Below are positions 935-28,655 of a stretch of DNA of 45,194 bases, piece after piece. Made by a program: the position numbers and the translations under genes. The DNA lies in the NCBI GenBank assembly GCA_902779395.1, contig CACZBK010000026.1, positions 1 through 45,194 of the forward strand, written 5' to 3'. Each line of letters starts with the position of its first letter. Positions within the stretch are counted from its first letter, which is position 1. Origin of the DNA: an uncultured Lachnospiraceae bacterium (GTDB taxonomy: Bacteria; Bacillota; Clostridia; Lachnospirales; Lachnospiraceae). The notes beneath the pieces were generated by a model. It saw only the letters and a program-made list of their open reading frames with translations. It did no database searches and had not been told where the DNA came from.

Positions 935-985
935 GACAAAGGCGTCACGAAGAGGATCAGTCTCTTTGTGACGCCATTTATGTTT
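935..985 (+). promoter_or_regulatory. gltB leader hairpin (shared nitrogen-gene leader)
   Basis: GACAAAGGCGTC (935-946) leads into a strong hairpin. Its outer arms are GGCGTCAC (941-948) and GTGACGCC (968-975), with an inner AAGAG/CTCTT stem, followed by ATTTATGTTTT. A TACAGT at 922-927 could be the -10, but no good -35 is visible. The hairpin lies about 80 bases before the gltB start and resembles an intrinsic terminator. The 12-base block aligns without gaps to leaders before nadE, glnK, the amine-oxidation genes, pyrG and amt. Confidence 0.6.
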
Positions 986-1054
986 TAAAGCTTTTTCCCG
1001 CTTGACAGGATAAGATCAAATATCAATACACACACAGAGAGGAGTTTTACAGCA

Positions 1055-4000
1055 ATGGAAGAAAGTCATCAGGGTTTATACAGAAAGGAATTTGAGCATG
1101 ATAACTGTGGTATAGGAGCCGTAGTTGATATCAAAGGAAAAAAATCCCACGCTACCGTAGAAAATGCATTAAGGATAGTCGAGAATCTGGAACACCGCGC
1201 AGGTAAAGATGCAGAGGGCAAGACCGGTGACGGCGTAGGTATCCTTTTGCAGATATCACATAAATTCTTTAAGAAGCATAGCGGTCTTGAACTGGGGGAT
1301 GAAAGAGACTATGGTATCGCCCAGCTCTTTATGCCGCAGAGTGAACTTAAACGCGCCCAGGCCAAGAAGATGTTCGAGGTGATCATCGAAAAGGAAGGGC
1401 TCAAACTGATTGGATGGAGAGAAGTGCCCTCATGTCCGGAAGTACTGGGACAGAGAGCGCTTGACTGCATGCCGCATATAATGCAGGCCTTTATAGAAAG
1501 GCCGGAGGAAGTGGAAAAAGGGCTTGCCTTTGACAGGAAGCTTTATATAGCAAGAAGAGAATTTGAACAGAGTAATGACAATACCTATGTAGTATCAATG
1601 AGCAGCAGGACCATAGTCTACAAGGGAATGTTCCTTGTAGGTCAGCTGCGTACCTTCTTTAAGGATCTGCAGGATAAGGATTACGAGTCCGCTATCGCTG
1701 TGGTTCATTCACGTTTCTCGACCAACACAAATCCCAGCTGGGAGAGAGCGCATCCCAATCGTTTCATAGTACATAACGGTGAGATAAATACCATTCACGG
1801 CAATGCGGATAAGATGTTGGCCCGTGAAGAGAATATGGACAGCGAGTTCTTAAAAGAGGATCTGCATAAGGTCCTTCCTGTGGTTAACCGTGACGGATCA
1901 GATTCTTCGATGCTTGATAACACATTGGAGTTCCTGGTAATGAGCGGAATGGAGCTGCCGCTGGCAGCAATGATCTGTATACCCGAGCCCTGGGCAAACA
2001 ATGATACCATCTCCCAGGAGATAAGGGATTTCTATCAGTACTACGCAACAATGATGGAGCCCTGGGACGGCCCCGCATCCATACTGTTTTCCGACGGTGA
2101 TATTGTGGGAGCTATACTGGATCGAAACGGTCTGCGTCCTTCAAGATATTACATCACCGATGATGAGAAGCTTATACTTTCATCGGAGGTAGGCGTGCTT
2201 CCTATAGAAGAGGAGCATATAGTATTAAAGGAGCGTCTGCATCCCGGCAAGCTTTTACTGGTAAATACCTTAGAAGGCAGGGTGATAGACGATCACGAGC
2301 TGAAAGAGAGATATGCACATGCTCATCCTTACGGTGAGTGGATCGACAGCAATATGCTTTCGCTTAAGGATATTCACATTCCTAATATCAGGACCATAGA
2401 ATACAAGCCCGAAGAGCGGGCAAGACTTCAGAAGGCTTTTGGTTATACCTTTGAGCAGTACCGTACATCCATTCTCAATATGGCGCTCAACGGCGGAGAA
2501 GGTATAGCCGCAATGGGCTGTGATACGCCTCTGGCAGTGCTTTCGAAAGAAGACAGGCCGCTCTTTGATTATTTCAAGCAGATGTTTGCACAGGTTACCA
2601 ATCCTCCCATCGATGCGATACGTGAGGAGATAGTAACGGCTACTACCGTATATGTAGGACGTGACGGAAACATACTTGAGCCTGCGCCGGAAAACTGCCA
2701 TGTGCTAAAGATAAACAATCCAATACTTACAAATACCGATCTGCTTAAGATAAAGCATATCGATCATGAAGGCTTTAAGGCCGGAGTGGTATCAACGCTG
2801 TATTATAAATCCACCAGGCTGGAGAGAGCTATCGACAGACTCTTCGTTGATGTTGATAAAGCATACCGTGACGGCGTAAATCTTCTGATATTATCAGACC
2901 GCGGTGTTGATGAGAACCATCTGGCAATACCTTCACTTTTAGCTGTGTCCGCAGTTCATCAGCATCTGGTACAGACCAAGAGACGCACCTCTTTAGCTAT
3001 AATACTTGAGAGCGGTGAACCCAGAGAGGTGCATCATTTCGCAACACTGCTGGGCTTTGGTGCTAGCGCAATAAATCCTTATCTGGCGCTTGATACCATT
3101 CATGAGCTGATAGATAACAACATGCTCAATAAGGATTACTATGCAGCAGTTGATGATTATAATCATGCAGTTCTTTCAGGCATAGTCAAGATAGCTTCAA
3201 AGATGGGTATCTCTACGATACAGTCCTATCAGGGTTCAAAGATATTTGAAGCTGTAGGCGTATCGAAGGAAGTTATTGATAAATATTTCAGCGGTACCAT
3301 AAGCCGTGTGGGCGGTATTACACTTAAGGATCTGGAGAACTCCGTTGACAGGCTTCATTCAGAGGCCTTTGATCCGCTGGGACTTCATACGGATCTTACG
3401 CTGGATTCCATCGGAGCACATAAGATGCGCAGCCAGGGAGAACAGCACAGATATAATCCCGCGACCATTCATCTGCTGCAGTATTCGACCAGGACCGGTG
3501 ATTACAATAAGTTTAAAGAGTATACTGCAAAGGTTGATGAAGAAAACCATGGCAACTTAAGAGGACTGCTGGATTTTAAATATGCGGAAAAACCCATCAG
3601 CATAGATGAAGTGGAATCCGTTGATGAGATAGTCAAGCGCTTTAAGACAGGTGCGATGAGCTACGGTTCGATATCTCAGGAAGCTCACGAGACACTGGCT
3701 ATAGCTATGAACCATCTGCACGGCAAATCGAATACCGGTGAAGGCGGTGAGAGTGATGAACGTATCGATTCAGCCGGCACGGATAATGACCGCTGCTCGG
3801 CCATAAAGCAGGTGGCAAGCGGACGTTTCGGTGTTACCAGCTCATATCTGGTATCTGCAAAGGAGATACAGATAAAGATGGCGCAGGGAGCAAAGCCGGG
3901 TGAGGGCGGACACCTTCCCGGAAAGAAGGTATATCCCTGGATAGCAAAGACCAGGCATTCAACACCGGGTGTAAGCCTTATATCGCCGCCCCCTCATCAC

Positions 4001-4840
4001 GATATTTATTCGATAGAGGATCTGGCACAGCTTATCTATGACCTTAAGTGTGCAAACCGTTATGCGGATATTTCGGTCAAGCTGGTATCGGAAGCAGGTG
4101 TAGGTACGATAGCAGCCGGCGTAGCCAAGGCAGGTGCGCAGGTTATACTTATCTCAGGTTATGACGGAGGCACCGGCGCGGCACCCAGATCATCGATACA
4201 TCATGCTGGTCTTCCCTGGGAGCTCGGACTGGCAGAAACGCACCAGACACTTATACAGAACGGCTTAAGAAGCCGTGTGCGTATAGAGACGGACGGTAAG
4301 CTCATGAGCGGACGTGATGTTGTTGTGGCTGCATTACTGGGCGCAGAAGAATTCGGGTTTGCAACTGCTCCCTTAGTAACCATGGGCTGTGTGATGATGC
4401 GTGTATGTAATCTGGATACCTGCCCTGTAGGTGTGGCAACACAGAATCCCAAGCTGCGTGAGAGATTCACAGGTAAGCCCGAGTATGTAGAGAACTTCAT
4501 GCGCTTTATCGCTCAGGAGATGCGTGAATACATGGCTAAACTGGGCGTAAGGAGCGTAAATGAACTGGTAGGCCGTACAGATCTGCTTGTAAGAAATAAT
4601 GAGGTCGGATGTCCTCATGAAGGCGGAGTTGATCTTTCTGCTGTGCTGCACGGCTGTGAGAGCAGTACCTTTGATCCCAAGGCTGTATATGATTTTAAAC
4701 TTGAAGAAACAAAGGATATGAAGGAGCTTTTGAAGAAATGCAAAAAGGCTGACCCAAAGGACTTACGCTTGAACTTACAGGTGATTCCAATGATTACTTC
4801 GGCAAGGGCTTATCAGGCGGCAAGCTTATCGCAAAGGTAA
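1055..4840 (+). CDS. gltB: Glutamate synthase large subunit, N-terminal 1261 residues (frame broken)
   Basis: This is the large subunit of NADPH-type GOGAT, which moves the glutamine amide to 2-oxoglutarate. The N-terminal class II amidotransferase domain has its nucleophile in HDNCGIG at residue 18, so a short propeptide is expected. The central domain and the FMN-binding synthase domain ([24 protein letters not shown]) follow. The 3Fe-4S cysteines are at about 1112, 1118 and 1123 ([13 protein letters not shown]). From about codon 1233 the frame leaves homologous sequence and ends in a 29-residue junk tail. The usual stretch with the NTDRxVGxML and GSAGQSFGAF motifs is missing, and the GXGXG domain resumes in another frame at 4753. 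This looks like a deletion of about 60 codons plus a frameshift, real or an assembly error. The start has a good AGAGGAG site at 1038-1044. GltD follows intact. Confidence 0.9.
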
Positions 4841-5397
4841 AGCCCGGAGCAAAGTATAAACCCGAAGAGAATGTGATAGTAGGTAATGTGGCGCTCTATG
4901 GTGCTACCAGCGGATATGCGTTTATAAATGGTGTTGCAGGCGAGAGATTTGCTGTACGAAACTCGGGCGCATATGCGGTAGTAGAAGGCGTAGGTGAGCA
5001 CGGCTGTGAGTATATGACCGGCGGACGTGTGGTTGTGCTGGGACATACAGGCAAGAACTTTGCTGCAGGCATGAGCGGCGGCGTAGCTTATGTTCTGGAC
5101 GAGGAAAATGTTCTTTATAAGAATCTTAATAAAGAGATGATCTCGCTTGAAAAAGTCGAGAACAAATATGATATACAGGAACTTAAGGGACTGATAGAAG
5201 CTCATGTTAAAGCTACGGGATCCGCTATCGGTAAAAGAGTGCTGGATGACTTTGATAACATGCTCCCCCATTTTAAGAAGCTGATACCCCACGAGTACAA
5301 GAAGGTGATGAGCCTTTCCACCACACTCGAGGAAAAAGGTTTATCGGCAGAAGAAGCACAGATGGAAGCATTTCTTAAATTACACGGGGAGGTATGA
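4753..5397 (+). pseudogene. gltB: Glutamate synthase large subunit, C-terminal GXGXG fragment
   Basis: This continues gltB in a different frame. From 4753 the frame reads [20 protein letters not shown] and then the glycine-rich beta-helix repeats ([53 protein letters not shown]), ending 4 bases before gltD. An in-frame TGA at 4750-4752 precedes it. There is no obvious ribosome site, and the first possible start is GTG 4873. In an intact gene this domain holds the synthase and amidase domains together, so the fragment alone is unlikely to work unless re-initiation or frameshifting rescues it. Together the two pieces encode about 1446 family-like residues, against roughly 1500 for normal GltB. 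Confidence 0.8.
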
Positions 5398-5401
5398 GAC
5401 A

Positions 5402-6877: not shown

Positions 6878-6933
6878 CAAGCTGCCATGAACTGACACCG
6901 TGAGCTTTAGCCAGATCTGTCAGCAGATTGCTG

Positions 6934-6990
6934 TATAATACAGGCAAGGGCAAAGGAGTCTGAATACAGATTTCTTTGCCTTTTTCTTTT
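6934..6990 (+). promoter_or_regulatory. Putative nadE promoter -10 and hairpin leader (or gltBD terminator)
   Basis: A TATAAT at 6934-6939 is followed by GGCAAGGGCAAA (6943-6954). A hairpin then forms with outer arms GGCAAAG (6949-6955) and CTTTGCC (6974-6980) and an inner AGTCTG/CAGATT stem closing an AATA loop. It ends in TTTTTCTTTT. No convincing -35 is present. The hairpin could simply terminate gltBD. Its match to the glnK and pyrG leaders and the -10 just upstream favour a leader role. Confidence 0.55.
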
Positions 6991-7015
6991 AACATGATCT
7001 GATAAGGAGAAGGGT

Positions 7016-8956
7016 ATGAAGAATAATCTTGTGAAAGTTGCGGCGGCGGTGCCTGAAATCAGGGTTGGGGATGTTTATCATAATACAGGGCAGATGTTAA
7101 GCGTGCTGGAGGGAACGGGAGACTGCGCTCTGGTGGTGTTTCCTGAATTATCACTGACAGGATATACTGCGGCGGATCTGTTCCTGAGCGAGCTTTTATT
7201 GGAAGAATGCCAGGATGCGCTTATTAAGATCGCGAGAGCAACTGAGGATAAGAAAACGACTGTGATAGCAGGTACTCCGGTACGTTACGGTAACTGCCTG
7301 TATAACTGCGGGGCTGTTTTATCACAGGGGGAGATAAAAGCACTGATACCCAAATCTTATCTTCCGAATTATTCAGAATTCTATGAATGCCGCTGGTTCG
7401 AGAGCGGAAAAAATCTGAGAGGAAGAAGCATACGTATCGATGACAGAGAGGTGCCCTTTGGCGTTGATATACTGTTTGAGGACAGCAGCAGCGGGGCAGT
7501 GCTGGGAGTGGAGCTTTGTGAGGATCTGTGGGTGCCGGATAAACCAAGTACGCATGCAGTTATGGGCGGTGCGAATATCATTGCAAATCTATCGGCTTCC
7601 GATGAGCTGATAGGTAAGCAGGAGTATAGATCGCAGCTGGTCGGGCAGCAGAGTGGATCGTGCGTATGCGCATATATTTACGCTTCTTCGGGAACATATG
7701 AGAGCAGTACGGACATGGTATTTTCGGGACATGCCATTATCGCTCAGAACGGACGCGTGCTTAGTGAAAGTATCTTTCCTGTTTATCCGCATGTGCAGAC
7801 TGCGCTTATTGATATCGGGATAATAATGCATGACAGGAGAAGGCAGAATACCTTTGAAAATGCAGATGGCCTGAATTATCGGAGGATAGAGGTGAGCATG
7901 CCTGCTGTGGGAGCTTGTGAAGCAGGCATAGAAGAAATGACTGCGATACTAAACATGCAGGAGTATTCTGTAGCAAAAAATCCCTTTGTGCCATCAGATG
8001 ATAATACAAGAGATGAAAGATGCAAAAAGATATTGCGTATACAGGCGAATGGTCTGGCTACGAGAGTGCGCGCGACAGGTATCAAAAATCTTATCATCGG
8101 CATATCCGGAGGTTTAGATTCTACACTGGCTTTGTTGGTATGCGCCGAAGCGAAGAAACTGATAAATGATATACGCATCATAGGATATACCATGCCAAAT
8201 GAAGGCAATACTTCCGGTCTTACTTTTGATAACGCGATGAAGCTGATGAAACTTTTATGTGATGAGGTTCATGAGATACCGATCAGGGAAGGCGTTGAAC
8301 ATCATCTGTTGCAGCTTGGCCACGAAAAAGAATATCGGGGAGAAGGCGATGTGACTTACGAGAACGCTCAGGCAAGGATGCGCACGTATCTGCTTATGGA
8401 TGCGGCGAATATGAAGAACGGCCTGGTGGTAGGAACAGGGGATCTGTCGGAGCTGGCGCTGGGTTGGTGTACCTATAATGGGGATCATATGTCGATGTAT
8501 GCGGTTAATGCTTCGGTCCCCAAGACACTGGTTAAATTCATATGCAGGTCGTATGCATATATCTGTGTGAGTAAGGAGTTAAAAGAAACCTTGCTTTCAA
8601 TCTGCGATACGCCCATATCTCCTGAGCTTACCCCCAGTATTGGCGGGCAGATAGCACAGAAAACAGAAGAGAAGATCGGCAAGTATGATCTTAATGATTT
8701 CTTCCTGTACTACACTTTGCGCTACGGTTTTGAACCGGCAAGATCTGCAGCTTATGCATTACGGGCTTATCCTGAATTGAGCGCGGCAGAAGTACGTGAA
8801 GCGGCTAAGAATTTCTTCAAGAGATTCTTTACCCAGCAGTTTAAGAGAAGCTGCCTGCCGGACGGGCCTAAAGTGGGATCGGTCACGCTCTCGCCTCGCG
8901 GGGACTGGCGCATGCCAAGTGATGCTTCCGCAGCATTGTGGCTTAAGGGACTATGA
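7016..8956 (+). CDS. nadE: NAD+ synthetase, glutamine-hydrolysing
   Basis: This 646-residue two-domain enzyme catalyses the last step of NAD synthesis: deamido-NAD, ATP and glutamine give NAD. The N-terminal nitrilase-type glutaminase (about 1-300) shows its catalytic triad context: Glu in VFPELSLTGY, Lys in LIPKSYLPNYSEFYE and Cys in GVELCEDLW (near residue 167). The C-terminal synthetase carries the PP-loop IGISGGLDSTLALL (about 360), followed by VVGTGDLSELALGWCTYNGDHMSMY. Length and order match glutamine-dependent NadE rather than the short ammonia-dependent form. An AGGAGAAGG site precedes ATG 7016. It is another glutamine consumer behind a nitrogen-type leader. nadD, the preceding step, lies at 41996. 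Confidence 0.95.
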   Translation: MKNNLVKVAAAVPEIRVGDVYHNTGQMLSVLEGTGDCALVVFPELSLTGYTAADLFLSELLLEECQDALIKIARATEDKKTTVIAGTPVRYGNCLYNCGAVLSQGEIKALIPKSYLPNYSEFYECRWFESGKNLRGRSIRIDDREVPFGVDILFEDSSSGAVLGVELCEDLWVPDKPSTHAVMGGANIIANLSASDELIGKQEYRSQLVGQQSGSCVCAYIYASSGTYESSTDMVFSGHAIIAQNGRVLSESIFPVYPHVQTALIDIGIIMHDRRRQNTFENADGLNYRRIEVSMPAVGACEAGIEEMTAILNMQEYSVAKNPFVPSDDNTRDERCKKILRIQANGLATRVRATGIKNLIIGISGGLDSTLALLVCAEAKKLINDIRIIGYTMPNEGNTSGLTFDNAMKLMKLLCDEVHEIPIREGVEHHLLQLGHEKEYRGEGDVTYENAQARMRTYLLMDAANMKNGLVVGTGDLSELALGWCTYNGDHMSMYAVNASVPKTLVKFICRSYAYICVSKELKETLLSICDTPISPELTPSIGGQIAQKTEEKIGKYDLNDFFLYYTLRYGFEPARSAAYALRAYPELSAAEVREAAKNFFKRFFTQQFKRSCLPDGPKVGSVTLSPRGDWRMPSDASAALWLKGL

Positions 8957-8980
8957 AGCTCATCAGTGCAGAGCTTTTTT
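8956..8980 (+). terminator. Intrinsic terminator after nadE
   Basis: AAGCTC (8956-8961) pairs with GAGCTT (8971-8976), followed by a T run to 8980. The 5' arm begins at the last base of the nadE stop codon. Confidence 0.6.
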
Positions 8981-9013
8981 AAGATGCATTAAACCGTAAA
9001 AGGAGTAAAAAAT

Positions 9014-10003: not shown

Positions 10004-10020
10004 AGATATTGGAAGAGGAC

Positions 10021-10157
10021 AATGAGGACACGGGGACGGTCCTAACTGTCCTCATGCTGTTAAAATGTATAGCGATCAAGTGTGTCAGTGATCGTGCATG
10101 CTGCGAAAAGCATTAAGGAATGAGTGAGGACAAAAGGACCGTCCCCGTGTCCTCATT
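10021..10157. repeat. Paired GGGGAC palindromic repeat (REP/MITE-like doublet)
   Basis: Two perfectly inverted 23-base arms, 10021-10043 and 10135-10157, flank about 91 bases. The core is GAGGACACGGGGACGGTCC. The next bases also pair (TGTCCTCA with TGAGGACA), and CGATCA/TGATCG forms a small central palindrome. Single copies of the core lie at 22481 and 32148. The layout resembles REP doublets or a small non-autonomous element. No transposase or RAYT gene is in the window. Confidence 0.8.
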
Positions 10158-10177
10158 GCTTGATGGGAGAATAAGGT

Positions 10178-10927: not shown

Positions 10928-10928
10928 G

Positions 10929-10945
10929 ACTACTCAAAAAGTAGT
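10929..10945. promoter_or_regulatory. Short inverted repeat, possible operator
   Basis: ACTACT (10929-10934) and AGTAGT (10940-10945) are separated by CAAAA, right after the LuxR-type gene and about 50 bases before the glnK -35. There is no T run, so it is not a terminator. It could be a regulator binding site; support is only the symmetry and position. Confidence 0.3.
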
Positions 10946-10995
10946 AGAAAAATGGTATTATTGGTGAGTTGAATTGTATTGATGAATAGTTTATA

Positions 10996-11024
10996 TTGCA
11001 CATAAAAGAAGTCCTATATTATAC
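10996..11024 (+). promoter_or_regulatory. glnK operon promoter
   Basis: TTGCAC (10996-11001) and TTATAC (11019-11024) are separated by 17 bases. Transcription would start near 11031, at the first base of the GGCAAGGGCGCT leader block. Confidence 0.6.
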
Positions 11025-11030
11025 AAATTA

Positions 11031-11073
11031 GGCAAGGGCGCTGTATCGGTGATACGGCGCCTTTTATGTTTTG
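11031..11073 (+). promoter_or_regulatory. glnK leader hairpin (shared nitrogen-gene leader)
   Basis: GGCAAGGGCGCT (11031-11042) opens the predicted transcript. An 11-bp stem follows: GGCGC (11037-11041) with GCGCC (11057-11061), plus a T-G wobble and GTATC/GATAC, closed by a GGT loop. TTTTATGTTTTG comes next. A terminator-like hairpin within about 30 bases of the predicted start suggests attenuation. The glnK start codon lies about 40 bases further on. Confidence 0.65.
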
Positions 11074-11100
11074 CAGTAAGAAGATAAGGAGGTATGAGTG

Positions 11101-11454
11101 ATGAAGGAATTAAATATATTTATACGTCCGGAGAAGCTTGAGGATGTTAAGGCAGTACTGGATAAGATTCATTGCGGAGGAATGACTTTATCGACCTGTA
11201 TGGGCTGCGGTACCCAGAAGGGCGTATCCGATGAAGGAAGCGTAAATGAGATAAAGGGTTATAAAACGACCATAAATCTTCTTCCGAAAGTAAAGGTGGA
11301 AGTGGTGGTAAATGATAAGGATGTTGAAACCGTAATATCAAATATCTGCGAAGTTTGTGCTACCGATCATGTGGGAGACGGAAAGATATTCATTAAAGAT
11401 GTTGAAGATGCGGTGAGGATCCGTACCGGAGAAAGAGGAGTAAAGGCATTATAG
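11101..11454 (+). CDS. glnK: P-II family nitrogen regulator GlnK
   Basis: This roughly 117-residue trimeric signal protein senses nitrogen and energy status through 2-oxoglutarate and ATP/ADP. It shows the T-loop approach TCMGCGTQKG, the LLPKVKVEVVV strand, the GDGKIFIKDV loop and the RIRTGERG C-terminal signature. The T-loop lacks the usual RGAEY uridylylation tyrosine context, although a tyrosine is nearby in KGYKT, so control by effector binding rather than uridylylation is likely. ATG 11101 is preferred over GTG 11098 because AGGAGG (11088-11093) is better spaced. The next gene, potA, begins 14 bases after the stop, so glnK is probably cotranscribed with a polyamine-type transporter rather than an ammonium channel, an unusual pairing. 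The window has a second P-II domain, fused to Amt. Confidence 0.93.
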   Translation: MKELNIFIRPEKLEDVKAVLDKIHCGGMTLSTCMGCGTQKGVSDEGSVNEIKGYKTTINLLPKVKVEVVVNDKDVETVISNICEVCATDHVGDGKIFIKDVEDAVRIRTGERGVKAL

Positions 11455-11468
11455 CCGGAGGTACGCAT

Positions 11469-12578: not shown

Positions 12579-12581
12579 GAA

Positions 12582-12652
12582 AAGATCCTTCGGGTATACG
12601 CCCACTGGATGACAGCAGACAGAAATGTCATCCTGAGCGAGGCGAAGGATTA
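12582..12652. repeat. Dispersed GTCATCCTGAGC palindrome between potA and potB
   Basis: ATCCTTCG pairs with CGAAGGAT at the ends, and GGATGACA (12607-12614) pairs with TGTCATCC (12626-12633) inside. This is the fullest copy of the family also found near 867, 30600 and 43340. It sits inside an operon and could tune or stabilise the messenger. Confidence 0.75.
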
Positions 12653-12680
12653 TAAAAAAAGCAGAGAGGAGAACATAAGC

Positions 12681-13553: not shown

Positions 13554-13562
13554 GAGGTGCCT

Positions 13563-15493: not shown

Positions 15494-15549
15494 TGATAAC
15501 GGGGCAAAGGGGCCCGGGATGGACACGGATCTGTCCCGGGTTTTGATTT
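15494..15549 (+). promoter_or_regulatory. Leader hairpin before the amine-oxidation genes (or potD terminator)
   Basis: A weak -10 (TGATAA, 15494-15499) precedes GGCAAAGGGGCC (15503-15514). A hairpin follows with arms CCCGGGA (15513-15519) and TCCCGGG (15534-15540), then TTTTGATTT. It may terminate potABCD. The 12-base block matches the leaders of gltB, glnK and pyrG, which favours a regulatory leader. Confidence 0.5.
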
Positions 15550-15566
15550 AAAAGGGAGATGAGAAT

Positions 15567-16715
15567 ATGGCGATTGATTTTTTGTATATGAGTGAAGAAA
15601 ACATGATCGATGCCGGAGTGCTAGATGCAAAACGCTGCGTGGAGACCATGAGGGATGTGATGAGTCTTTTCGGAAAAGGAGATTATATCATGGGAGGACC
15701 CAAAGGTGACGAGCACGGACTGCAGATCAATTTTCCCAAAGCTAAGGATATCGAAAACTTTCCTTTAGATAATGGACCTGACAGAAGATTTAATGCGATG
15801 CCGGCATATCTGGGCGGAAGATTTCATATAGCGGGACAGAAATGGTACGGATCGAATCATGAGAATATAAGCAGGGGGCTTCCAAGATCGATTCTTATGG
15901 CCACGCTGAATGATGTAGACAGCGGAGCTCCTATAGCATATATGTCGGCAAATCTCCTAAGCGCGATGAGAACAGGCTCTATGCCGGCTATGGCAGCGGA
16001 TTATCTTGCAAAACATGATTCGGAAGTGCTTTCGATACTTGGTCCGGGCGTGATAAATAAATGTGCGTTGATGAGCTATATGGCTGTACTGCCCGGGATA
16101 AAAAAGATAAAGATAAAAGGAAGTTCTCCGATATCGGCATCAACGCTGGCATTTAAGAAATTCGTCAGCGAGAAATATCCGCAGATTAAGCAGATCGAGA
16201 TCTGCGATACACTTGAGCAGGCATGCCGTGATGCGGATGTTGTAAGTGAGGCGATGTCTGTCAGCCCCGATAAAGCAGAGGAATTCCACCTTGAGTGGTT
16301 TAAGAAGGGAGCAACGGTGTTTTCTATGGGAAGTTTTCCTTTCAGGGAATTTGATAAACTTGCTGATATAACAATGGTGGTTGATAACTACGGGATGTAT
16401 GACAAATATATGAACAACTTTATAGCACGCGGTCCCGTCGATGAGCTTGGAAATAAAAGGGAGTGGGTGATCATGGGGATTCATTTCATACACCTGGTAA
16501 GAGAAGGAATGGTAAAAAAGGAACAGGTGATAAACCTTTGCGATATTGTAAACGGTATATCGAAGGGAAGGACTTCTAATGAAGAGATAGTGTTTTGCAG
16601 CAGCGGCGGGATGCCGATAGAGGATGTGGCCTGGGGATATGACTGCTACAGATATGCGATAGAAAAAGGCATAGGGACCGGGCTTAGGCTGTGGGAAGAA
16701 CCATACATGAGATAG
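15567..16715 (+). CDS. Ornithine cyclodeaminase/mu-crystallin family protein, copy 1
   Basis: This 382-residue protein of the OCD/mu-crystallin family contains enzymes acting on amino acids or cyclic imines with NAD(P). Seen here are an N-terminal EENMIDAGV...CVETM region, the substrate-side segment GQKWYGSN, the strongly conserved LMATLNDVDSGAPIAYMSANLLSAMRTGSMPA, the nucleotide-binding loop ILGPGVINKCAL (about 152) and an Asp in MVVDNY. It is about 40-60 residues longer than classical ornithine cyclodeaminase. A paralogue follows 27 bases later. From memory and unchecked, some automated annotations call similar proteins 'tyramine oxidase subunit B'. The reaction is not known from sequence; a role with the neighbouring amine/opine-oxidase-like complex is inferred from position. 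Confidence 0.8.
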   Translation: MAIDFLYMSEENMIDAGVLDAKRCVETMRDVMSLFGKGDYIMGGPKGDEHGLQINFPKAKDIENFPLDNGPDRRFNAMPAYLGGRFHIAGQKWYGSNHENISRGLPRSILMATLNDVDSGAPIAYMSANLLSAMRTGSMPAMAADYLAKHDSEVLSILGPGVINKCALMSYMAVLPGIKKIKIKGSSPISASTLAFKKFVSEKYPQIKQIEICDTLEQACRDADVVSEAMSVSPDKAEEFHLEWFKKGATVFSMGSFPFREFDKLADITMVVDNYGMYDKYMNNFIARGPVDELGNKREWVIMGIHFIHLVREGMVKKEQVINLCDIVNGISKGRTSNEEIVFCSSGGMPIEDVAWGYDCYRYAIEKGIGTGLRLWEEPYMR

Positions 16716-16742
16716 ATATGTTTTGGGAAGGGAGATGGTAAT

Positions 16743-17876
16743 ATGAGTTATCCGGCAATAGATTTTTTGTTTTTGAATGAAGAGGATATGATAAAGGCCG
16801 GTGTTAAGGATATGCCGGCATGTATAGATGCCATGGAGGAAGTGGTGAAATGTCTGAATGCCGGGGATTATGTGATGGGGGGAGAGAATCATAATTCACA
16901 TGGGAGCCAGGTTTCATTTCCTAAAGATTCTGTTTTTCCTAATATGCCTAAAGATGTTGGGGATGACAGAAGATTCATGGCTATGCCCGCATATATAGGA
17001 GGTCCCTTTGATCTGATGGGGATGAAGTGGTACGGCTCCAATATGGCTAACCGTAAAATGGGACTTCCCAGATCGATACTGACCGTGATGTTAAACGATA
17101 AGGATACGGGAGCACCGCTTGCCCTTATGAGCGCTAATCTCTTAAGTGCGTACAGGACAGGAGCTATTCCCGGAGTAGGTGCCAGATATCTGGTTAGGAA
17201 AAATGCGAAGGTATGCGGAATCTGCGGGCCGGGTGTAATGGGAAAGACCTCATTGGCAGCGATAATGGCAGTATGCCCGGAAATTGATACGCTGAAGGTC
17301 AAGGGACGTGGAAAGGCATCACTTGAAAAGTTCATTGGCTTTGTAAAAAAAGAATACCCTGATCTGAAAAATATAACAGCGGTGGATACTGTGGAAGAAT
17401 TGATAAGAGATTGTGATGTTATCTCCTTTGCCAATTCGGGAGGATATGATCCCTCAACTTATCCGTTTGTAAAGAAGGAATGGATCAAGCCCGGGGCAGT
17501 TATCATAGGGGTAAGCGCATTTGACATGGATGCTGAGGAACTGGCGTCATGTTCGCTGGTAGTTGACAATATCAAGCTTTATCAGTCGTGGGCGGAGGAG
17601 TATCCTTATCCTTCATTCGGAATAAATAATATCATAGGATCAAAGTTTACCGATATGGTGCATGACGGGCTGATCACTATGGATGAGATAACGGATCTGG
17701 GAGATATCATTTTCAGCAAGAAATCCGGCAGGGTCAGTGAAGATCAGATATTTGTTTATTCAGTAGGAGGCATGCCGGTGGAAGATGTGGCATGGGGGAA
17801 GGTCTGTTATGAAAAAGCAAAAAAAATGGGACTGGGAACAAAGTTACATTTATGGGACAGTCCGGATATGTGTTAA
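16743..17876 (+). CDS. Ornithine cyclodeaminase/mu-crystallin family protein, copy 2
   Basis: This 377-residue paralogue of the preceding gene aligns along the full length (IDFLFLNEEDMIKAGV, GMKWYGSN, SILTVMLNDKDTGAPLALMSANLLSA, GPGVMGKTSLAAIM, SLVVDN, GGMPVEDVAWG). It diverges enough that the two may handle different substrates or form a heteromer. The lysine-containing KWYGSN segment and the C-terminal Asp are both kept, so there is no sign of decay. A GGGAG site precedes the ATG. It is followed closely by the [2Fe-2S] subunit, so all these genes are probably one transcript. The family is secure; the substrate is unknown. Confidence 0.8.
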   Translation: MSYPAIDFLFLNEEDMIKAGVKDMPACIDAMEEVVKCLNAGDYVMGGENHNSHGSQVSFPKDSVFPNMPKDVGDDRRFMAMPAYIGGPFDLMGMKWYGSNMANRKMGLPRSILTVMLNDKDTGAPLALMSANLLSAYRTGAIPGVGARYLVRKNAKVCGICGPGVMGKTSLAAIMAVCPEIDTLKVKGRGKASLEKFIGFVKKEYPDLKNITAVDTVEELIRDCDVISFANSGGYDPSTYPFVKKEWIKPGAVIIGVSAFDMDAEELASCSLVVDNIKLYQSWAEEYPYPSFGINNIIGSKFTDMVHDGLITMDEITDLGDIIFSKKSGRVSEDQIFVYSVGGMPVEDVAWGKVCYEKAKKMGLGTKLHLWDSPDMC

Positions 17877-17914
17877 GGTCTGAGACGGATAAAGACAGAG
17901 AGGAGATCAGGATC

Positions 17915-18241
17915 ATGGCAGAGAGGATAGAGGAACATCCGATACTCGGTGTTGTTGAGAAAGGTCGTAAAGTAAGTTTTAGCTTTGACGGAAAAGAAAT
18001 CGAAGGATATGAGGGAGAACCTATAGCTGCGGCTCTTAAAGCCGCAGGCGTTATGGTTCACAGATATACACAGAAGGAGCATAAGCCAAGAGGGATATTC
18101 TGTGCGATAGGACGGTGTACTGACTGTGTGATGATAGTTGATGGCGTACCCAACGTAAGGACATGTATAACACCGCTTAAAGAGGGGATGGCGGTCAGGA
18201 CACAGTACGGGGTTTCAGATAAAGCTTTTGAGGAACAGTAG
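17915..18241 (+). CDS. [2Fe-2S] ferredoxin-like subunit (HcnA/opine-oxidase small subunit type)
   Basis: This small electron-transfer subunit of about 108 residues has the Fer2_4 pattern: VSFSFDGKEIEGYEGEPIAA, then GIFCAIGRCTDCVMIVDG and a final NVRTCITPL, giving the four-cysteine C-x4-C-x2-C...C set. Such proteins are the small subunits of HcnABC, opine oxidases and heteromeric proline dehydrogenases, or the N-terminal part of sarcosine oxidase alpha. ATG 17915 with AGGAG nine bases upstream is preferred over an upstream in-frame start at 17852 that would overlap the previous gene. It lies 6 to 12 bases before the flavoprotein subunit, as expected for one complex. Confidence 0.85.
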   Translation: MAERIEEHPILGVVEKGRKVSFSFDGKEIEGYEGEPIAAALKAAGVMVHRYTQKEHKPRGIFCAIGRCTDCVMIVDGVPNVRTCITPLKEGMAVRTQYGVSDKAFEEQ

Positions 18242-18253
18242 GAGGACATGTTT

Positions 18254-19849
18254 ATGAAAAGATACGATCTGATCATTGTTGGTGCAGGACCTTCAGGCTT
18301 GTCAGCTGCTATTGAGGCAGCAAAGAGGGGATTAAATGTGATAGTTTTTGATGAGAATGAGAAACCGGGAGGCCAGCTTTTTAAACAGATCCATAAGTTC
18401 TTCGGATCTAAAGAACACAGGGCAAAAGTAAGAGGATTTGTGATAGGCAGGCAGTTACTCGAAGAAGCAGCAGAGGCAGGCGTAACGGTCAAACTGAATG
18501 CTACAGTTATAGGACTTTATCAGGATAAAGAAGTAGTAGTAAAGCAGGGAACGGGGATAAAACATTACAAGGCGGACTCGGTTATTATAGCAACGGGAGC
18601 TGCAGAGAATATGGTGCTGTTCCCTGGATGGACGCTTCCCGGCGTTATAGGGGCGGGAGCTGCACAGACCATGATGAACCTGCATGGTATATTGCCCGGA
18701 AAGAAGATCCTTATGCTGGGATCCGGAAATGTAGGGCTGGTCGTATCATTTCAGCTCATGCAGTGCGGCTGCGAGGTTGTTGCTTTAGTTGATGCGGCTC
18801 CAAGAGTGGGCGGATACGGAGTACATGCATCTAAGGTGGCAAGATGCGGAGTACCTTTTTACCTTTCCCATACCATAGTGGAAGCTGAAGGAGAAGAATG
18901 CGTTAAGGGTGTGACTATAGCAGAGGTGGATGATAAGTTCAGATTTATCCCGGGAACCGAAAAACACTTTGAGGTTGATACCATATGCATGGCGGTGGGC
19001 TTATCGCCCATGTCGCAGCTGCTTAAAATGGCAGGTGCTGAAATGACCGATGACCCAAGACGCGGTGGTCAGGTGCCTGTTTGTGACAGATACGGACGTA
19101 CATCAATACCCGGGGTATTTGCGGCCGGTGATGTTTCGGGGATAGAAGAAGCTTCGTCTGCAATGATAGAGGGACGCATGGCGGGAGTTATCGCTGCGCA
19201 GTACCTGGGATATATTGATAAAGAGGATCTGGATAAAGATCTGGCTGAACTGGATAAAGCACTTGACGGACTGCGTCAGGGAATGTTTGCACCGGCAAAC
19301 AGGGGTAAGCTTATCGAAAAGACTGAAGAGGGTATTGATATATCTTCAAATCTGCTTAAAAAGGGATATGTAGCTGATGATGAAATAGACCGCTTCCCCG
19401 GTGTTACACACAAGAAGGGGATACATCCAGTTATAGAATGTACACAGAATATCCCGTGTAATCCGTGCCAGGATGCATGTCCCAAGAAGTGTATCTCTAT
19501 AGGTGATAATATAACTTCTCTTCCCATAGCAGTGTATGAAGGGGATTGTATCGGCTGCGGAATGTGTGTGGCCAGCTGTTCGGGACAGGCGATCTTTCTG
19601 GTGGATGAAGACTGCGGGGACGGAAGTGCAACAATTACGATCCCCTATGAATTCCTGCCTCTGCCCAAAGAAGGGACTAAAGGAGTGGCGCTTGGCAGGA
19701 ACGGTCATGTGGTATGTGAGGCAGAAGTGGTATCAGTAAGGAGTGCAACGGCATTTGATAAAACCCATTTACTCACTATGCGTGTTCCCAAAGAATATGC
19801 AATGACGGCCAGGTTTTTTAAGGAAGCTGAGCGGGAGGTATCAAGATGA
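18254..19849 (+). CDS. FAD/NAD(P)-binding flavoprotein with two [4Fe-4S] clusters (HcnB/opine-oxidase large-subunit type)
   Basis: This protein of about 531 residues is built like the large subunit of HcnABC/opine-oxidase complexes. It has an FAD Rossmann motif (LIIVGAGPSGLSAAIEAA) at the N-terminus, a second dinucleotide site ILMLGSGNVGLVVS near 155 and GVFAAGDVSGIEEASSAMIE near 290. Unlike simple HcnB proteins it carries a dicluster ferredoxin insert: CNPCQDACPKKC at about 401-412 and CIGCGMCVASC at about 432-442, suggesting electron exit through ferredoxin in an anaerobe. The usual C-terminal BFD-like [2Fe-2S] domain is absent here and is encoded by the next gene. GGAGG is only 2 bases from ATG 18248 but 8 from ATG 18254, so the latter is preferred. 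It is probably part of a complex with the flanking subunits; the electron donor is unknown. Confidence 0.85.
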   Translation: MKRYDLIIVGAGPSGLSAAIEAAKRGLNVIVFDENEKPGGQLFKQIHKFFGSKEHRAKVRGFVIGRQLLEEAAEAGVTVKLNATVIGLYQDKEVVVKQGTGIKHYKADSVIIATGAAENMVLFPGWTLPGVIGAGAAQTMMNLHGILPGKKILMLGSGNVGLVVSFQLMQCGCEVVALVDAAPRVGGYGVHASKVARCGVPFYLSHTIVEAEGEECVKGVTIAEVDDKFRFIPGTEKHFEVDTICMAVGLSPMSQLLKMAGAEMTDDPRRGGQVPVCDRYGRTSIPGVFAAGDVSGIEEASSAMIEGRMAGVIAAQYLGYIDKEDLDKDLAELDKALDGLRQGMFAPANRGKLIEKTEEGIDISSNLLKKGYVADDEIDRFPGVTHKKGIHPVIECTQNIPCNPCQDACPKKCISIGDNITSLPIAVYEGDCIGCGMCVASCSGQAIFLVDEDCGDGSATITIPYEFLPLPKEGTKGVALGRNGHVVCEAEVVSVRSATAFDKTHLLTMRVPKEYAMTARFFKEAEREVSR

Positions 19850-20178
19850 ACAGTGTAAATGACAGATCGCGTGATATAGGAGAGTATGTTCCGGCTGAGG
19901 ATGATGATATGCTGATATGCCGCTGTGAAGAGATCACCAAGGGGGAGATACGACGGGCGGTACATGACGGAATGTGGACTATGACAGAGATAAGAAGATA
20001 CCTGCGTGCAGGTATGGGACTGTGCCAGGGACAGACCTGTTCAAGGCTGGTTAAGGGTATAGTAGCAAGAGAGCTGGGAGTATCGCCGGCGGAAATAGAA
20101 CCTGCCACGAGCAGGGTACCTATGAGGCCCATAGAGATGCGTATCTTTGCGAAAGAAGGTGATGCTGATGAAGAATAA
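19846..20178 (+). CDS. BFD-like [2Fe-2S] domain protein
   Basis: This 110-residue protein has the bacterioferritin-associated-ferredoxin-like fold. LICRCEEITKGEIRRAV gives C-x-C, and the later LCQGQTCSRLV gives C-x4-C, which together bind one [2Fe-2S] cluster. In HcnB and opine-oxidase large subunits this domain is normally fused at the C-terminus; here it is a separate gene whose ATG overlaps the flavoprotein stop (ATGA, 19846-19849). Its end overlaps the next gene by about 11 bases. Tight overlap on both sides implies translational coupling and fixed subunit ratios. Confidence 0.85.
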   Translation: MNSVNDRSRDIGEYVPAEDDDMLICRCEEITKGEIRRAVHDGMWTMTEIRRYLRAGMGLCQGQTCSRLVKGIVARELGVSPAEIEPATSRVPMRPIEMRIFAKEGDADEE

Positions 20179-21298
20179 AGCTGATGTTATCGTGATAGGC
20201 GGAGGCGTTATAGGAAATTCCGCTGCTTATTATCTTGCAAAGAGAAACTTAAGTGTGATCGTACTGGAAGGCAGTGATCATATCGGCAACGGTGGTTCCA
20301 GCAGAAACGGCGGCGGGGTAAGGCAGTCGGGACGTGACATACGGGAGCTCCCTCTGGTCATGTACGGGATAAAGAATATATGGCCTACGCTTTCGGAGGA
20401 ACTGGAAACAGACTGTGAGTATCATCAGGACGGAAATCTGCGTCTGGGGAAAAATGAAAAGCATAAGGAAATACTCACGAAACTGGCTGAGAATGCAAAA
20501 AAGTGCGGACTGGATGTCAGGATGATCGACGGTGAGGAAGTGCGCAGGATCAATCCTTATCTTTCGGATGAAGTGACCTGTGCAAGCTGGTGTCCTACGG
20601 ACGGACATGCAAATCCGCTTACCACAACCCTTGGATATTATAAGATGGCCAGAAGGAACGGCGTTGATTTTATTACGGGCGAAAAGGTAACAGAGCTTCG
20701 GACTGTTAAAGGGAGAGTAAGGAAAGTCATATGTGCATCGGGGGATGTTTTTGAAGGTGAAAACGTGCTTGTAGCAGCAGGATTTGACAGCCGGGCAATT
20801 CTTGGGACTGTTGGAGTGGATATCCCGATGACAAGATCTCTTCTGGAATGCCTGGTAACAGAGGCGCAGCCGCATATGTTCGATCAGATGCTTGGGACGG
20901 CTGAAGCTGATTTCTACGGGCATCAGACTAAGCACGGATCCTTTGTGTTCGGCGGATCATCAGGTTTTGAGGGCTGCAATAAGGATAACGGTACCCCGAT
21001 ATCAAATGCTAAGACCGCACCCTGTATCTGCAGGGGGATCATGAAGTATTTTCCGATGCTTTCGGAAGCAAAGATAGTAAGGACATGGGCAGGCTGGAGC
21101 GATAAATGCGCTGATGGAGTGGCTGTTGTGGGTGCGATCGATGAGGTGCCTGGGTTGTATACATCATGCGCGATGACGGGACATGGATTTGGCATAGGGC
21201 CGGCGGCGGGGCATCAATTGGCGCAGCTGATCGCTACTGGAAAAACGGATGTGGATCTGTCCACACTCAGGTATGACAGGTTTAAGGCAAAGATATGA
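20168..21298 (+). CDS. FAD-dependent amine/amino-acid oxidoreductase (DAO family, HcnC-like catalytic subunit)
   Basis: This protein of about 376 residues of the glycine oxidase/sarcosine oxidase beta/D-amino-acid dehydrogenase superfamily starts with the FAD motif VIVIGGGVIGNSAAYYLAKR. GGSSRNGGGVRQSGRD is the flavin-contact segment seen in HcnC and proline-dehydrogenase beta subunits, and the end has CAMTGHGFGIGPAAGHQLAQLI. It should oxidise a C-N bond of an amino acid, imino acid or secondary amine, passing electrons to the iron-sulfur subunits upstream. ATG 20168 with AAGAAGG eight bases upstream is chosen over several earlier in-frame starts. It is the likely substrate-binding subunit of the four-gene complex; the substrate cannot be deduced. 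Confidence 0.85.
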   Translation: MKNKADVIVIGGGVIGNSAAYYLAKRNLSVIVLEGSDHIGNGGSSRNGGGVRQSGRDIRELPLVMYGIKNIWPTLSEELETDCEYHQDGNLRLGKNEKHKEILTKLAENAKKCGLDVRMIDGEEVRRINPYLSDEVTCASWCPTDGHANPLTTTLGYYKMARRNGVDFITGEKVTELRTVKGRVRKVICASGDVFEGENVLVAAGFDSRAILGTVGVDIPMTRSLLECLVTEAQPHMFDQMLGTAEADFYGHQTKHGSFVFGGSSGFEGCNKDNGTPISNAKTAPCICRGIMKYFPMLSEAKIVRTWAGWSDKCADGVAVVGAIDEVPGLYTSCAMTGHGFGIGPAAGHQLAQLIATGKTDVDLSTLRYDRFKAKI

Positions 21299-21322
21299 CA
21301 GGCTGATACGGGAGGAAAGACA

Positions 21323-22483
21323 ATGAACGATTATGATTATCATGTACCAACGGATATACGTTTCGGACGCGGAAGGATAAACTGTCTGAATGAGGAAATA
21401 GGTAAATACGGGAAAAAGGTGCTGTTGGTATATGGCGGCGGCAGCATAAAGAAGAACGGCATTTACAGCAAGGTGTACGAAGTGCTTGAGAAGTTTGACA
21501 TATACGAGCTGCCGGGTATAGAACCAAATCCTAAGCTGGCTTCGGTAAGAAAAGGAGCGGAGATGTGTAAAAAGTACGGTATCGACGTTGTACTGGCTGT
21601 GGGTGGAGGAAGCACCATCGATGCTTCGAAGCATATCGCCTGCGCTGCATTTTATGATGGGGATCCCTGGGATCTGGTTCTGGACAGGTCGAAGATCAGC
21701 AAAGCTCTTCCGATATTTACAGTGCTTACGATATCTGCTACAGGCTCTGAGATGAATCCGGGTGCGGTTATCAGTAATGAAGTAACAAAAGAAAAGCTGG
21801 AGATAAATCATCCTCTTTTGTATCCCGCTTTGTCGGTGTGCGATCCGACGTATCAGTTCAGCCTTCCGGCAAAGCAGACGGCGGCAGGCTGCGTTGATAT
21901 CTTCTCACATATACTTGAGCAGTATTTCCAGCCAAATGACGGTGCATTTATCACCGACAGGCTGAGTGAAGCCGCACTTAAGACCTGCATAAAGTATGGG
22001 CCGCAGGCTGTTGCCGTACCGGATGATTATGAGGCCAGATCAAATCTTATGTGGACGGGATCGATAGCTCTCAATCATTTGTTTACATTCGGAAAAGGCG
22101 GAGGATGGAGCGTTCATCCCATAGAACATGAGCTTTCTGCTTTTTATGATCTGACCCACGGAGTGGGACTTGCCATACTGACGCCTGCCTGGATGAAATA
22201 TGTGCTTTCAGATGCTACGGTAAAGCGTTTTGCTATGTATGCCCGCAATGTATGGGATGTTGACGATGAAGACGACCGGGCAGCAGCAAACGCCGGGATA
22301 TATCTTACAGAGAGATTTTTTAAGGAACTGGGAATGCCATCTAAGCTTTCGGACGTGGGTATAGATGATTCAAGATTGGCAGAGATGGCTGCTGAAGCTG
22401 TCCGTACCAGCAGCCTGTCCACCAGGGCTTATGTGAAGCTTAGTGTTTCGGATGTTGAAGCGATCATGAGGATGGCAATGTGA
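21323..22483 (+). CDS. Iron-containing alcohol dehydrogenase (NAD(P)H-dependent, BDH type)
   Basis: This 386-residue group III alcohol dehydrogenase has the nucleotide-binding VLAVGGGSTIDASKHIA near residue 95 and the metal-site segments DIFSHILEQYF and HPIEHELSAFYDLTHGVGLAI, which give the Asp and three His ligands. It resembles butanol dehydrogenases. At the end of the amine-oxidation run it could reduce an aldehyde released by oxidative deamination and regenerate NAD(P)+, though that link is inferred. A GGGAGGAAAG site precedes the ATG. The stop codon is the first TGA of a palindromic repeat. Confidence 0.9.
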   Translation: MNDYDYHVPTDIRFGRGRINCLNEEIGKYGKKVLLVYGGGSIKKNGIYSKVYEVLEKFDIYELPGIEPNPKLASVRKGAEMCKKYGIDVVLAVGGGSTIDASKHIACAAFYDGDPWDLVLDRSKISKALPIFTVLTISATGSEMNPGAVISNEVTKEKLEINHPLLYPALSVCDPTYQFSLPAKQTAAGCVDIFSHILEQYFQPNDGAFITDRLSEAALKTCIKYGPQAVAVPDDYEARSNLMWTGSIALNHLFTFGKGGGWSVHPIEHELSAFYDLTHGVGLAILTPAWMKYVLSDATVKRFAMYARNVWDVDDEDDRAAANAGIYLTERFFKELGMPSKLSDVGIDDSRLAEMAAEAVRTSSLSTRAYVKLSVSDVEAIMRMAM

Positions 22484-22512
22484 GGACACGGGGACTGTCC
22501 CCGGTGTCCTCA
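22481..22512. repeat. Single GGGGAC palindromic repeat
   Basis: TGAGGACACGGGGAC pairs with GTCCCC and GTGTCCTCA, with one bulge. Its first TGA is the stop codon of the alcohol dehydrogenase, and it ends 3 bases before the pyrG -35. It may act as a terminator-like insulator; there is no T run. Confidence 0.8.
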
Positions 22513-22515
22513 CCC

Positions 22516-22543
22516 TTGACAAAATCAGTTAATGTAGTATACT
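22516..22543 (+). promoter_or_regulatory. pyrG-carAB promoter
   Basis: TTGACA (22516-22521) and TATACT (22538-22543) are separated by 16 bases, both near consensus. Transcription should start about 22551-22556, at or just before the leader block. Confidence 0.75.
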
Positions 22544-22555
22544 ATCTGTCGTTGA

Positions 22556-25305
<2,750 letters not shown>

Positions 25306-25306
25306 T

Positions 25307-28300: not shown

Positions 28301-28477
28301 TATGTAAGCTATGTGATCAATACGCGTGCGATACTTTCCGGGATCCATTATGAGGATGGTGTTGCTATCCGCCGTTGCGCTGTACAGAATGGTGTTACAA
28401 TGTTCACCTCTCTGGATACAGTGCGTATCTTGCTGGATGTACTGGAGGAAGCTGCGCCCAGGATATCGGTAATATAG
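25307..28477 (+). CDS. carB: Carbamoyl-phosphate synthase large subunit
   Basis: This 1056-residue synthetase has the duplicated ATP-grasp structure. The first half begins [21 protein letters not shown], and the second, near residue 548, begins [20 protein letters not shown]. Each half has a metal/ATP segment ending [16 protein letters not shown] or [16 protein letters not shown]. The MGS-type allosteric domain occupies about the last 130 residues ([29 protein letters not shown]). A GGGGGG-rich site precedes the ATG, one base after carA. A weak hairpin with a T run follows the stop. Confidence 0.96.
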
Positions 28478-28488
28478 GCCTGGAGCAG

Positions 28489-28515
28489 AGTGCTATCTGT
28501 GATCGGGCACTTTTT
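28489..28515 (+). terminator. Weak intrinsic terminator after carB
   Basis: AGTGC (28489-28493) can pair with GCACT, followed by a TTTTT run (28511-28515). The stem is only five to six pairs. The 323-base gap to the amt gene also holds A-tracts, a promoter and a structured leader, described separately. Confidence 0.4.
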
Positions 28516-28522
28516 GATCGAG

Positions 28523-28598
28523 GAAAAAATATTGGACAGTATTTTTTTTGAAAAAATATTAAAAAGTTATTGACATGAAAAGTATAAGGGTGTATAGT
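28523..28598 (+). promoter_or_regulatory. amt promoter with upstream A-tracts
   Basis: TTGACA (28570-28575) and TATAGT (28593-28598) are separated by 17 bases. Just upstream, AAAAAATATT occurs twice with TATTTTTTTT between, a pattern of curved or UP-element-like DNA that usually strengthens promoters. Activity is inferred. Confidence 0.7.
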
Positions 28599-28609
28599 AA
28601 TCAATGTAA

Positions 28610-28655
28610 AGCGAAGGAGCTATTGCGAAAGCAGTGGCTCCTTTCTCTTTTGTGT
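28610..28655 (+). promoter_or_regulatory. amt leader hairpin (shared nitrogen-gene leader)
   Basis: AGCGAAGGAGCT (28610-28621) is the most divergent copy of the shared block. GGAGCTA pairs with TGGCTCC, then TGC with GCA around a GAAA tetraloop, followed by TTTCTCTTTTG. It begins about 12 bases after the -10. Confidence 0.6.

Follow-up and report, generated by a model that had tools for sequence, protein, structure and literature searches.

Nitrogen-gene leaders of a Lachnospiraceae bacterium read as probable single-hexaloop ANTAR antitermination switches

Introduction

AmiR and NasT are ANTAR proteins that are freed by a partner protein, NasS in the case of NasT, and the ANTAR antiterminators linked to glnA in Clostridium go by the names NitR and GlnR. 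Ramesh et al. 2012 (PMC3369931) describe ANTAR targets as six-base loops with A at position 1 and G at position 4 (hereafter A1/G4), on stems of at least 3 pairs, with the second of two hairpins, P2, placed over a terminator; most of these targets precede nitrogen genes. Here, we analysed a stretch of 45,194 nucleotides from an uncultured Lachnospiraceae bacterium (contig CACZBK010000026.1 of assembly GCA_902779395.1, forward strand), which will be referred to as the window. In the window, the leaders of gltB, nadE, a glnK-like gene, an amine-oxidase-like operon at 15.5 kb, pyrG and amt carry a hairpin with this loop, or with a close variant of it, over a terminator. We read these leaders as a new variant of the ANTAR switch, a single-hexaloop regulon for nitrogen genes, in contrast to the two-hairpin arrangement of its best-studied relatives. 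They are called a variant because the dual-hairpin definition fails for them, though they appear to work like an ANTAR switch.

The EutV/EutW system of the Enterococcus faecalis eut operon has, like the leaders described here, an A1/G4 six-base loop on a short stem and a P2 hairpin that overlaps an intrinsic terminator. However, EutV works only with P1 and P2 together, joined by a constrained linker, and receives a phosphate from a kinase, whereas here a single hairpin lies behind a promoter and the receiver domain of the candidate regulator lacks the aspartate. The ANTAR nitrogen regulons of Ramesh et al. 2012, for example that of Desulfotomaculum, comprise genes of the same kinds as here (PII, ammonium transporters, glutamate and glutamine synthases), but they were found with a two-hairpin model, which would miss single-hairpin leaders. 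The non-dual ANTAR sites mentioned in PMC8934654, which are stem-loops over ribosome binding sites in Mycobacterium tuberculosis and an extra single EutX hexaloop, break the two-hairpin rule as ours do; unlike ours, they work at translation start regions or by sequestering the protein, and do not serve antitermination over a terminator. AmiR of Pseudomonas resembles the regulator described below in its receiver-like domain without a phosphate site (PMC8934654). In contrast to the AmiR and NasT systems, which have AmiC and NasS as partners, the constant neighbour here is glutamine synthetase (GS). PMC4676874 mentions nitR as an antiterminator for ammonia assimilation in Clostridium acetobutylicum and, for C. 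thermocellum, a cluster in which an ANTAR gene accompanies GS and glutamate synthase (GOGAT) genes. This glnA-linked Clostridium protein is probably of the same family as the regulator described here, and the glnA-ANTAR circuit probably overlaps with that of nitR. In a literature search that covered few subscription journals, we recognised no description of single-hexaloop ANTAR leaders in Lachnospiraceae.

Results

An earlier note on this DNA, made from the sequence alone, had described a stable hairpin followed by a T-rich tract in each of the six leaders; these are present, and the terminator-like hairpins have energies of -21.3 to -25.8 kcal/mol. Nine hairpins on the + strand of the window reach -18 kcal/mol or better; six are these leaders, and the other three lie within open reading frames. 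The same note had aligned an ungapped 12-base block in front of the six genes. The sharing is real, but the common unit is not an ungapped 12-mer: it is a stem of at least 3 pairs closed by C-G, with a six-base loop that has A at position 1 and G at position 4. Four of the block positions fit as they were given, while the one at nadE was out of register by 6 bases and the amt element has G at loop position 1.

All six elements, on the + strand, have stems of at least 3 base pairs, and five of them have the A1/G4 loop. Before gltB, the hairpin TTGTGAC[AAAGGC]GTCACGA (931..950; loops are given in brackets), an element with counterparts in leaders of relatives, overlaps the terminator at 941..974 (-25.8 kcal/mol), which runs into a T-rich tract. 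The nadE hairpin, GGGC[AAAGGA]GTCT (6948..6961), overlaps a terminator at 6946..6982 (-23.3 kcal/mol), and that of glnK, GGC[AAGGGC]GCT (11031..11042), overlaps one at 11034..11063 (-21.3 kcal/mol). The element at 15.5 kb, GGGC[AAAGGG]GCCC (15502..15515), overlaps the terminator at 15510..15542 (-21.7 kcal/mol); it sits between a polyamine-type ABC transporter operon and the amine-oxidase-like operon. At pyrG, GGC[AAAGGC]GCC (22556..22567) overlaps a terminator at 22559..22591 (-23.6 kcal/mol), and at amt, AGC[GAAGGA]GCT (28610..28621), in which the first loop base is G and not A, overlaps the terminator at 28608..28649 (-23.7 kcal/mol). The hairpins thus lie over intrinsic terminators, as P2 does in the dual-hairpin definition. 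Because of this overlap, the hexaloop hairpin and the terminator are mutually exclusive folds. The window has 6 A1/G4 hexaloops over terminators of -18 kcal/mol or better, 5 of them in the leaders and 1 within a gene, and 0-3 hexaloops with each of the 15 remaining letter pairs; the comparisons with relatives below give stronger evidence against chance.

A search of Rfam at the six sites with E-values up to 1 gave no match above the gathering score, and a chance-level match at amt only. With the same limit, five Rfam matches were obtained in all, none of them convincing; the best, below its gathering score, is a repeat at 34.6 kb. The earlier view that the blocks belong to no named RNA family holds for Rfam, but the loop is that of the published ANTAR targets.

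Promoters were scanned for upstream of the elements and each score was judged against 200 shuffles. The promoters of pyrG (TTGACA-16-TATACT, 22516..22543, +) and amt (TTGACA-17-TATAGT, 28570..28598, +) have scores that no shuffle reached, and the same is true of glnA and dapL, two further members outside the window; all four end 11-12 bases 5' of the hairpin. Where the promoter is this clear, transcription would begin almost at the hairpin. A clear promoter adjoining the hairpin leaves no room for P1. For glnK, for which a clear promoter had also been claimed, the result is ambiguous: a candidate, TTGCAC-17-TTATAC (10996..11024, +), can be seen by eye, while the best pair of the scan is a different one, which ends 33 bases 5' of the hairpin (7/200 shuffles). 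At nadE, TATAAT at 6934..6939 (+) is a candidate -10 box found by eye, and the scan gave no significant pair (38/200). The scan also gave none at gltB and at 15.5 kb (130/200 and 140/200); these two elements look intercistronic. The proposal that the hairpin stands at the 5' end of the message therefore stands for pyrG and amt, as well as for glnA and dapL.

We collected 131 leaders of relatives (set 1), those of amt, glnK, gltB, pyrG and nadE drawn from as many as 40 genomes and those of glnA from 20, and counted hexaloop hairpins with stems of at least 3 pairs that exclude a terminator of -12 kcal/mol or better. The A1/G4 form was found in 57 of the 131 leaders; the counts for the 15 remaining letter pairs lie at 3-16 (mean 7.9). 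Broken down by gene, the A1/G4 form was present in 22/27 leaders for amt, 3/3 for glnK, 12/24 for gltB, 6/20 for glnA, 9/29 for pyrG and 5/28 for nadE; part of the low counts will be chance. The element thus recurs before homologues of the genes named in the earlier note, although most nadE and pyrG leaders are without it.

Covariation was tested on 64 distinct elements of set 1 that were selected by sequence only, as C[ANNGNN]G at a terminator. Stem pairs 2, 3, 4 and 5 form in 63, 57, 42 and 37 of the 64, a total of 199 of 256, compared with 124.8 (standard deviation 6.5, highest 150 of 2000) when the 3' arms were dealt anew, the pairing counts being inflated by related sequences. When the partner is shifted by 1-3 bases, these pairs form in 2-35 of the 64. 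Pair 2 is A-T in 29 elements, G-C in 28, G-T in 3, C-G in 2 and T-A in 1, and unpaired in 1. In several amt leaders, such as that with CCAC[AAAGGC]GTGG, the terminator takes the upstream arm and the hairpin is kept despite the changed overlap; since the terminator uses the other arm there, the hairpin is no mere consequence of the terminator.

The position of the promoter was also followed in the relatives. In set 1, a promoter that scores above the 95% level of shuffles precedes 31 of 55 elements, and for 27 of these 31 there are 4-20 bases between the end of the -10 box and the stem. Of 38 loops in set 2, the glnA loci described below, 34 begin 10-17 bases past the -10 box. A second A1/G4 hexaloop 14-45 bases upstream was found for 8 of 57 elements, which is the chance level (the other 15 pairs gave 1-16, mean 6.0). 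There is no excess of a P1 joined to P2 by a short linker; the promoter occupies the place of P1. The leaders therefore fall outside the dual-hairpin ANTAR definition; they have the anatomy of an ANTAR antitermination site with a single hexaloop, placed close to the start of the message. Four leaders of relatives, three of gltB (L098, L099 and L111) and one of amt (L016), have two complete hexaloop-terminator units in tandem, which might act as a graded switch.

A search of the genome (3.58 Mb assembly, 97% complete) found one ANTAR protein, whose ANTAR domain (PF03861) scores 63.8 bits against a cut-off of 27.3. Its gene starts 3 bases past the stop codon of glnA, which encodes a type I glutamine synthetase. 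The glnA leader has the promoter TTGACG-17-TATAAT and, 11 bases on, CAC[AAAGGG]GTG, which overlaps a hairpin with a weak T tract. On the same contig, dapL has a like promoter-hairpin layout, with a terminator that was scored. The two leaders (contig C16, 46488-46539 and ~54455-54507) have a near-identical module, TTGACG-17-TATAAT followed by CACAAAGGGGTGCCCG, which suggests that the module was duplicated.

The ANTAR protein is related in sequence to the EutV structure 6wsh (E 4e-7). The predicted structure of a 91% identical relative, with a mean predicted local distance difference test score (pLDDT) of 90.6, keeps the receiver fold and best matches RNA-bound EutV (6ww6, template modelling score 0.81), with AmiR among the matches. 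Residue numbers of EutV are given here by our own mapping onto the ANTAR protein. In the protein itself and in its nearest relatives a Gly aligns with Asp54 of EutV, so that the phosphate-accepting aspartate is missing. At the position of Tyr164, the protein and 30 of 30 glnA-linked relatives have a His, in an AHRY motif; in a separate set, 1 of 12 has a Phe.

Loci with a relative of the ANTAR protein formed set 2, for which the best 80 of 574 were taken. In 78 of these 80 loci glnA lies directly 5' of the ANTAR gene, and the remaining two are at contig ends. There were 75 usable glnA leaders, 69 of them with a strong promoter. Among these 69, 35 have C[ANNGNN]G with at least 3 pairs within 38 bases of the -10 box, one of which (L302) is doubtful. 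When set 2 was selected by sequence only, loop letter 1 was A in 38, G in 17, C in 4 and T in 4 elements, and in the A1 elements 126 of 152 pairs form compared with 97.8 in shuffles (standard deviation 4.0, highest 113). Just before glnA, the hexaloops over terminators are A1/G4 in 25 cases and G1/G4 in 10, with 1-3 for each of the other pairs. One of the G1 forms, CAC[GAAGGA]GTG (L232), has the variant loop of the amt element of the window, which thus occurs elsewhere. Seven glnA leaders (L270, L273, L279, L283, L285, L288 and L297) have another common segment (GGGGTGGTGCGAAGATGGTCCAT) behind the promoter, not an A1 hexaloop; it is perhaps a different leader element.

In the genome itself, specificity emerges only once overlap with a terminator is required. 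A looser form of the pattern gave 26 rows, of which 4 have hairpin and terminator; these are three sites of the window and dapL. A covariance model of hairpin and terminator was built from 25 sequences that include the eight of this genome, so that matches at its own sites arise by construction. It returned 11 places, with pyrG, gltB, glnK, glnA and dapL at E-values up to 0.03 and the 15.5 kb element at 1.8; nadE and amt were not returned in this search of the genome, and the model may miss other members. Five other places have E-values of 0.9-7.2; four of them lack a C-G-closed A1/G4 hairpin, and the one that has it (C3) lies in an open frame, where the hairpin that it overlaps is weak (-12.1). 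In 195 relatives across the order, the pattern and its control gave 499 and 290 matches in 150 genomes with an ANTAR protein, compared with 84 and 75 in 45 genomes without one. Among genomes with zero control matches, the pattern was found in 47 of 56 with the protein and in 8 of 18 without it (Fisher p 0.0018); kinship is ignored in both comparisons.

The genes behind the elements are all on the + strand. The frame of gltB, the glutamate synthase large subunit (1055..4840), is shorter than in most relatives, where gltB is a single frame of ~1500 amino acids. Here, a frame of 1261 amino acids stops at 4840 and the GXGXG part is in a separate frame from 4873, with 4841-4872 in between; the split is an assembly error or the gene is broken. 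A sequence like GTCATTCTGAGCAAAGCGAAGAATCTT at ~870-930, before the gltB element, resembles stretches before the amt (L027) and the gltB (L097) of one relative, and looks like a dispersed repeat. The NAD synthase gene nadE is at 7016..8956, and the gene of the glnK-like PII protein is at 11098..11454. The amine-oxidase-like operon (15567..21298) encodes ornithine-cyclodeaminase-type and sarcosine-oxidase-like proteins. CTP synthase is encoded by pyrG (22619..24223), with its likely start codon at 22619, which is followed by carAB. Just 5' of the pyrG promoter, at 22482-22511, there is a 30-base near-palindrome (gaggacacggggactgtccccggtgtcctc), which may be a repeat or may terminate the preceding gene. 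The ammonium transporter gene amt (28801..30579) is an amt-PII fusion. On the - strand, 34569-37235 is an open frame of 888 amino acids, in which a trinucleotide-repeat-like stretch near 34641-34768 gives Rfam matches below threshold.

Discussion

The blocks are, with a probability of roughly 0.8 in our estimate, single ANTAR-type hexaloop antiterminator hairpins, with the ANTAR protein encoded behind glnA as their regulator. We infer the binding of this protein, the direction of its effect (antitermination) and the signal. RNA polymerase would start a few bases upstream, and the hexaloop hairpin would be made first. By default, the growing RNA would refold into the terminator, and a transcript of ~40-50 bases would stop short of the gene. 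In its active state, the ANTAR protein would grip the loop, stabilise the small hairpin and so block the 5' arm of the terminator, and there would be read-through into glnA-ANTAR, gltB, nadE, glnK, pyrG-carAB, amt, dapL and the amine-oxidation operon. At gltB and 15.5 kb, a like mechanism probably works between genes. A common attenuation mechanism over nitrogen genes, as first suggested for this DNA, is thus supported, and for the antiterminator, which had been left without a name, the one ANTAR protein found is a strong candidate. With less assurance, yet on balance, we favour a genome-scale Lachnospiraceae nitrogen regulon of single-hexaloop, promoter-proximal ANTAR antitermination, which would do without P1 or receiver phosphorylation; its antiterminator would be encoded and autoregulated together with GS and possibly be gated by GS.

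Phosphorylation is unlikely as the signal because the receiver has no phosphate-accepting aspartate. The signal would probably be a protein contact or a ligand that reports the nitrogen or glutamine state, not a kinase. Glutamine synthetase and PII are the obvious candidates for a signal partner, since GS is the constant neighbour of the ANTAR gene and PII proteins are among the targets.

Several results weigh against the single-hexaloop ANTAR reading. EutV required the second hairpin (PMC3369931). By our mapping, Tyr164 of EutV, which stacks on G4, corresponds to the His mentioned above and Lys143 to a Glu. The glnA leader of this genome was not flagged by the terminator scan, and its T tract is weak. 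The amt element of the window has G1, and G1 elements of set 2 as a group are not above shuffles (44/68 pairs versus 40.6). The A1 hairpin is missing in 34 of the 69 strong-promoter glnA leaders, including each of the nine that are listed as Lacrimispora or Hungatella. Most relatives have no element at nadE or pyrG, and some of those counted are there by chance. When all 1.19 Mb of the 80 loci are counted, A1/G4 (54) is not commoner than G1/G4 (59), and the excess is at glnA only. In the genome, the strict pattern has 4 matches compared with 10 for the reversed control, though all 4 are at these leaders, and the 26 rows of the looser pattern compare with 31 for its control. The order-wide co-occurrence test is modest.

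A canonical dual-hairpin target would be at hand if transcription started further upstream and P1 had been missed. The characterised eut, nasF and amiE sites have both P1 and P2 (PMC3369931), some relatives have tandem elements, each with its own terminator, and at glnK the promoter ranked best by the scan would leave a gap of ~33 bases to the hairpin, in which, however, the search for an A1/G4 hexaloop found none. We consider a missed P1 improbable: the upstream hexaloops, seen in 8 of 57 elements, are at chance level, and the spacing to the -10 box (27/31 and 34/38) leaves P1 no room. It is a still more distant prospect that the hairpins are ordinary terminators of the preceding genes that resemble ANTAR loops by chance. 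The elements at gltB and 15.5 kb do lie 66 and 22 bases past the upstream stop codon and have no significant promoter, and raw pattern counts are not enriched genome-wide; but promoters lie 5' of the hairpin in many leaders, and their positions already contradict this explanation, the stems covary, the same genes carry the element in many genomes, and the loop letters stand far above the 15 alternatives.

At Bacillus pyrG, attenuation is known to act at the start site, through reiterative initiation. Attenuation by another factor, be it nucleotide-dependent choice of the start site or reiterative initiation, a small RNA or another RNA-binding protein, would suit hairpins that begin very close to the predicted transcription start. 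However, the distance to the -10 box varies, some sites have no adjacent promoter, and the ANTAR gene is linked to glnA; the loop letters and the C-G closing pair also agree with selection data for NasR, in which the closing pair is C-G (PMC7496416). Such a factor has little probability. Reiterative initiation as at Bacillus pyrG was set aside on the covariation and the sites without an adjacent promoter, and a start-site effect of RNA polymerase, which the earlier note had offered beside the antiterminator, is not supported in view of the covarying stem, the varying -10 distance and the hairpins without an adjacent promoter. Equally small is the chance that the ANTAR protein binds the hairpins and chiefly promotes termination or alters RNA stability. 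The sequence cannot give the direction, but since hairpin and terminator exclude each other, binding is predicted to give read-through, as was shown for EutV (PMC3369931).

If the leaders are single ANTAR hexaloops, they bear on a question raised in the EutV structure paper of Walshe et al. (PMC8934654). That work found no contact specific for A1, narrowed the binding site down to a single hexaloop and asked why antitermination needs two hairpins; single sites were expected where the transcribing polymerase imposes no time limit. The leaders described here look like natural single-hexaloop antiterminators under that very time limit, in many genomes, which makes the question directly testable. 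They also suggest that search models built on dual hairpins overlook some of the ANTAR targets. A probable nitrogen-control circuit can now be named for a major family of bacteria from gut and rumen.

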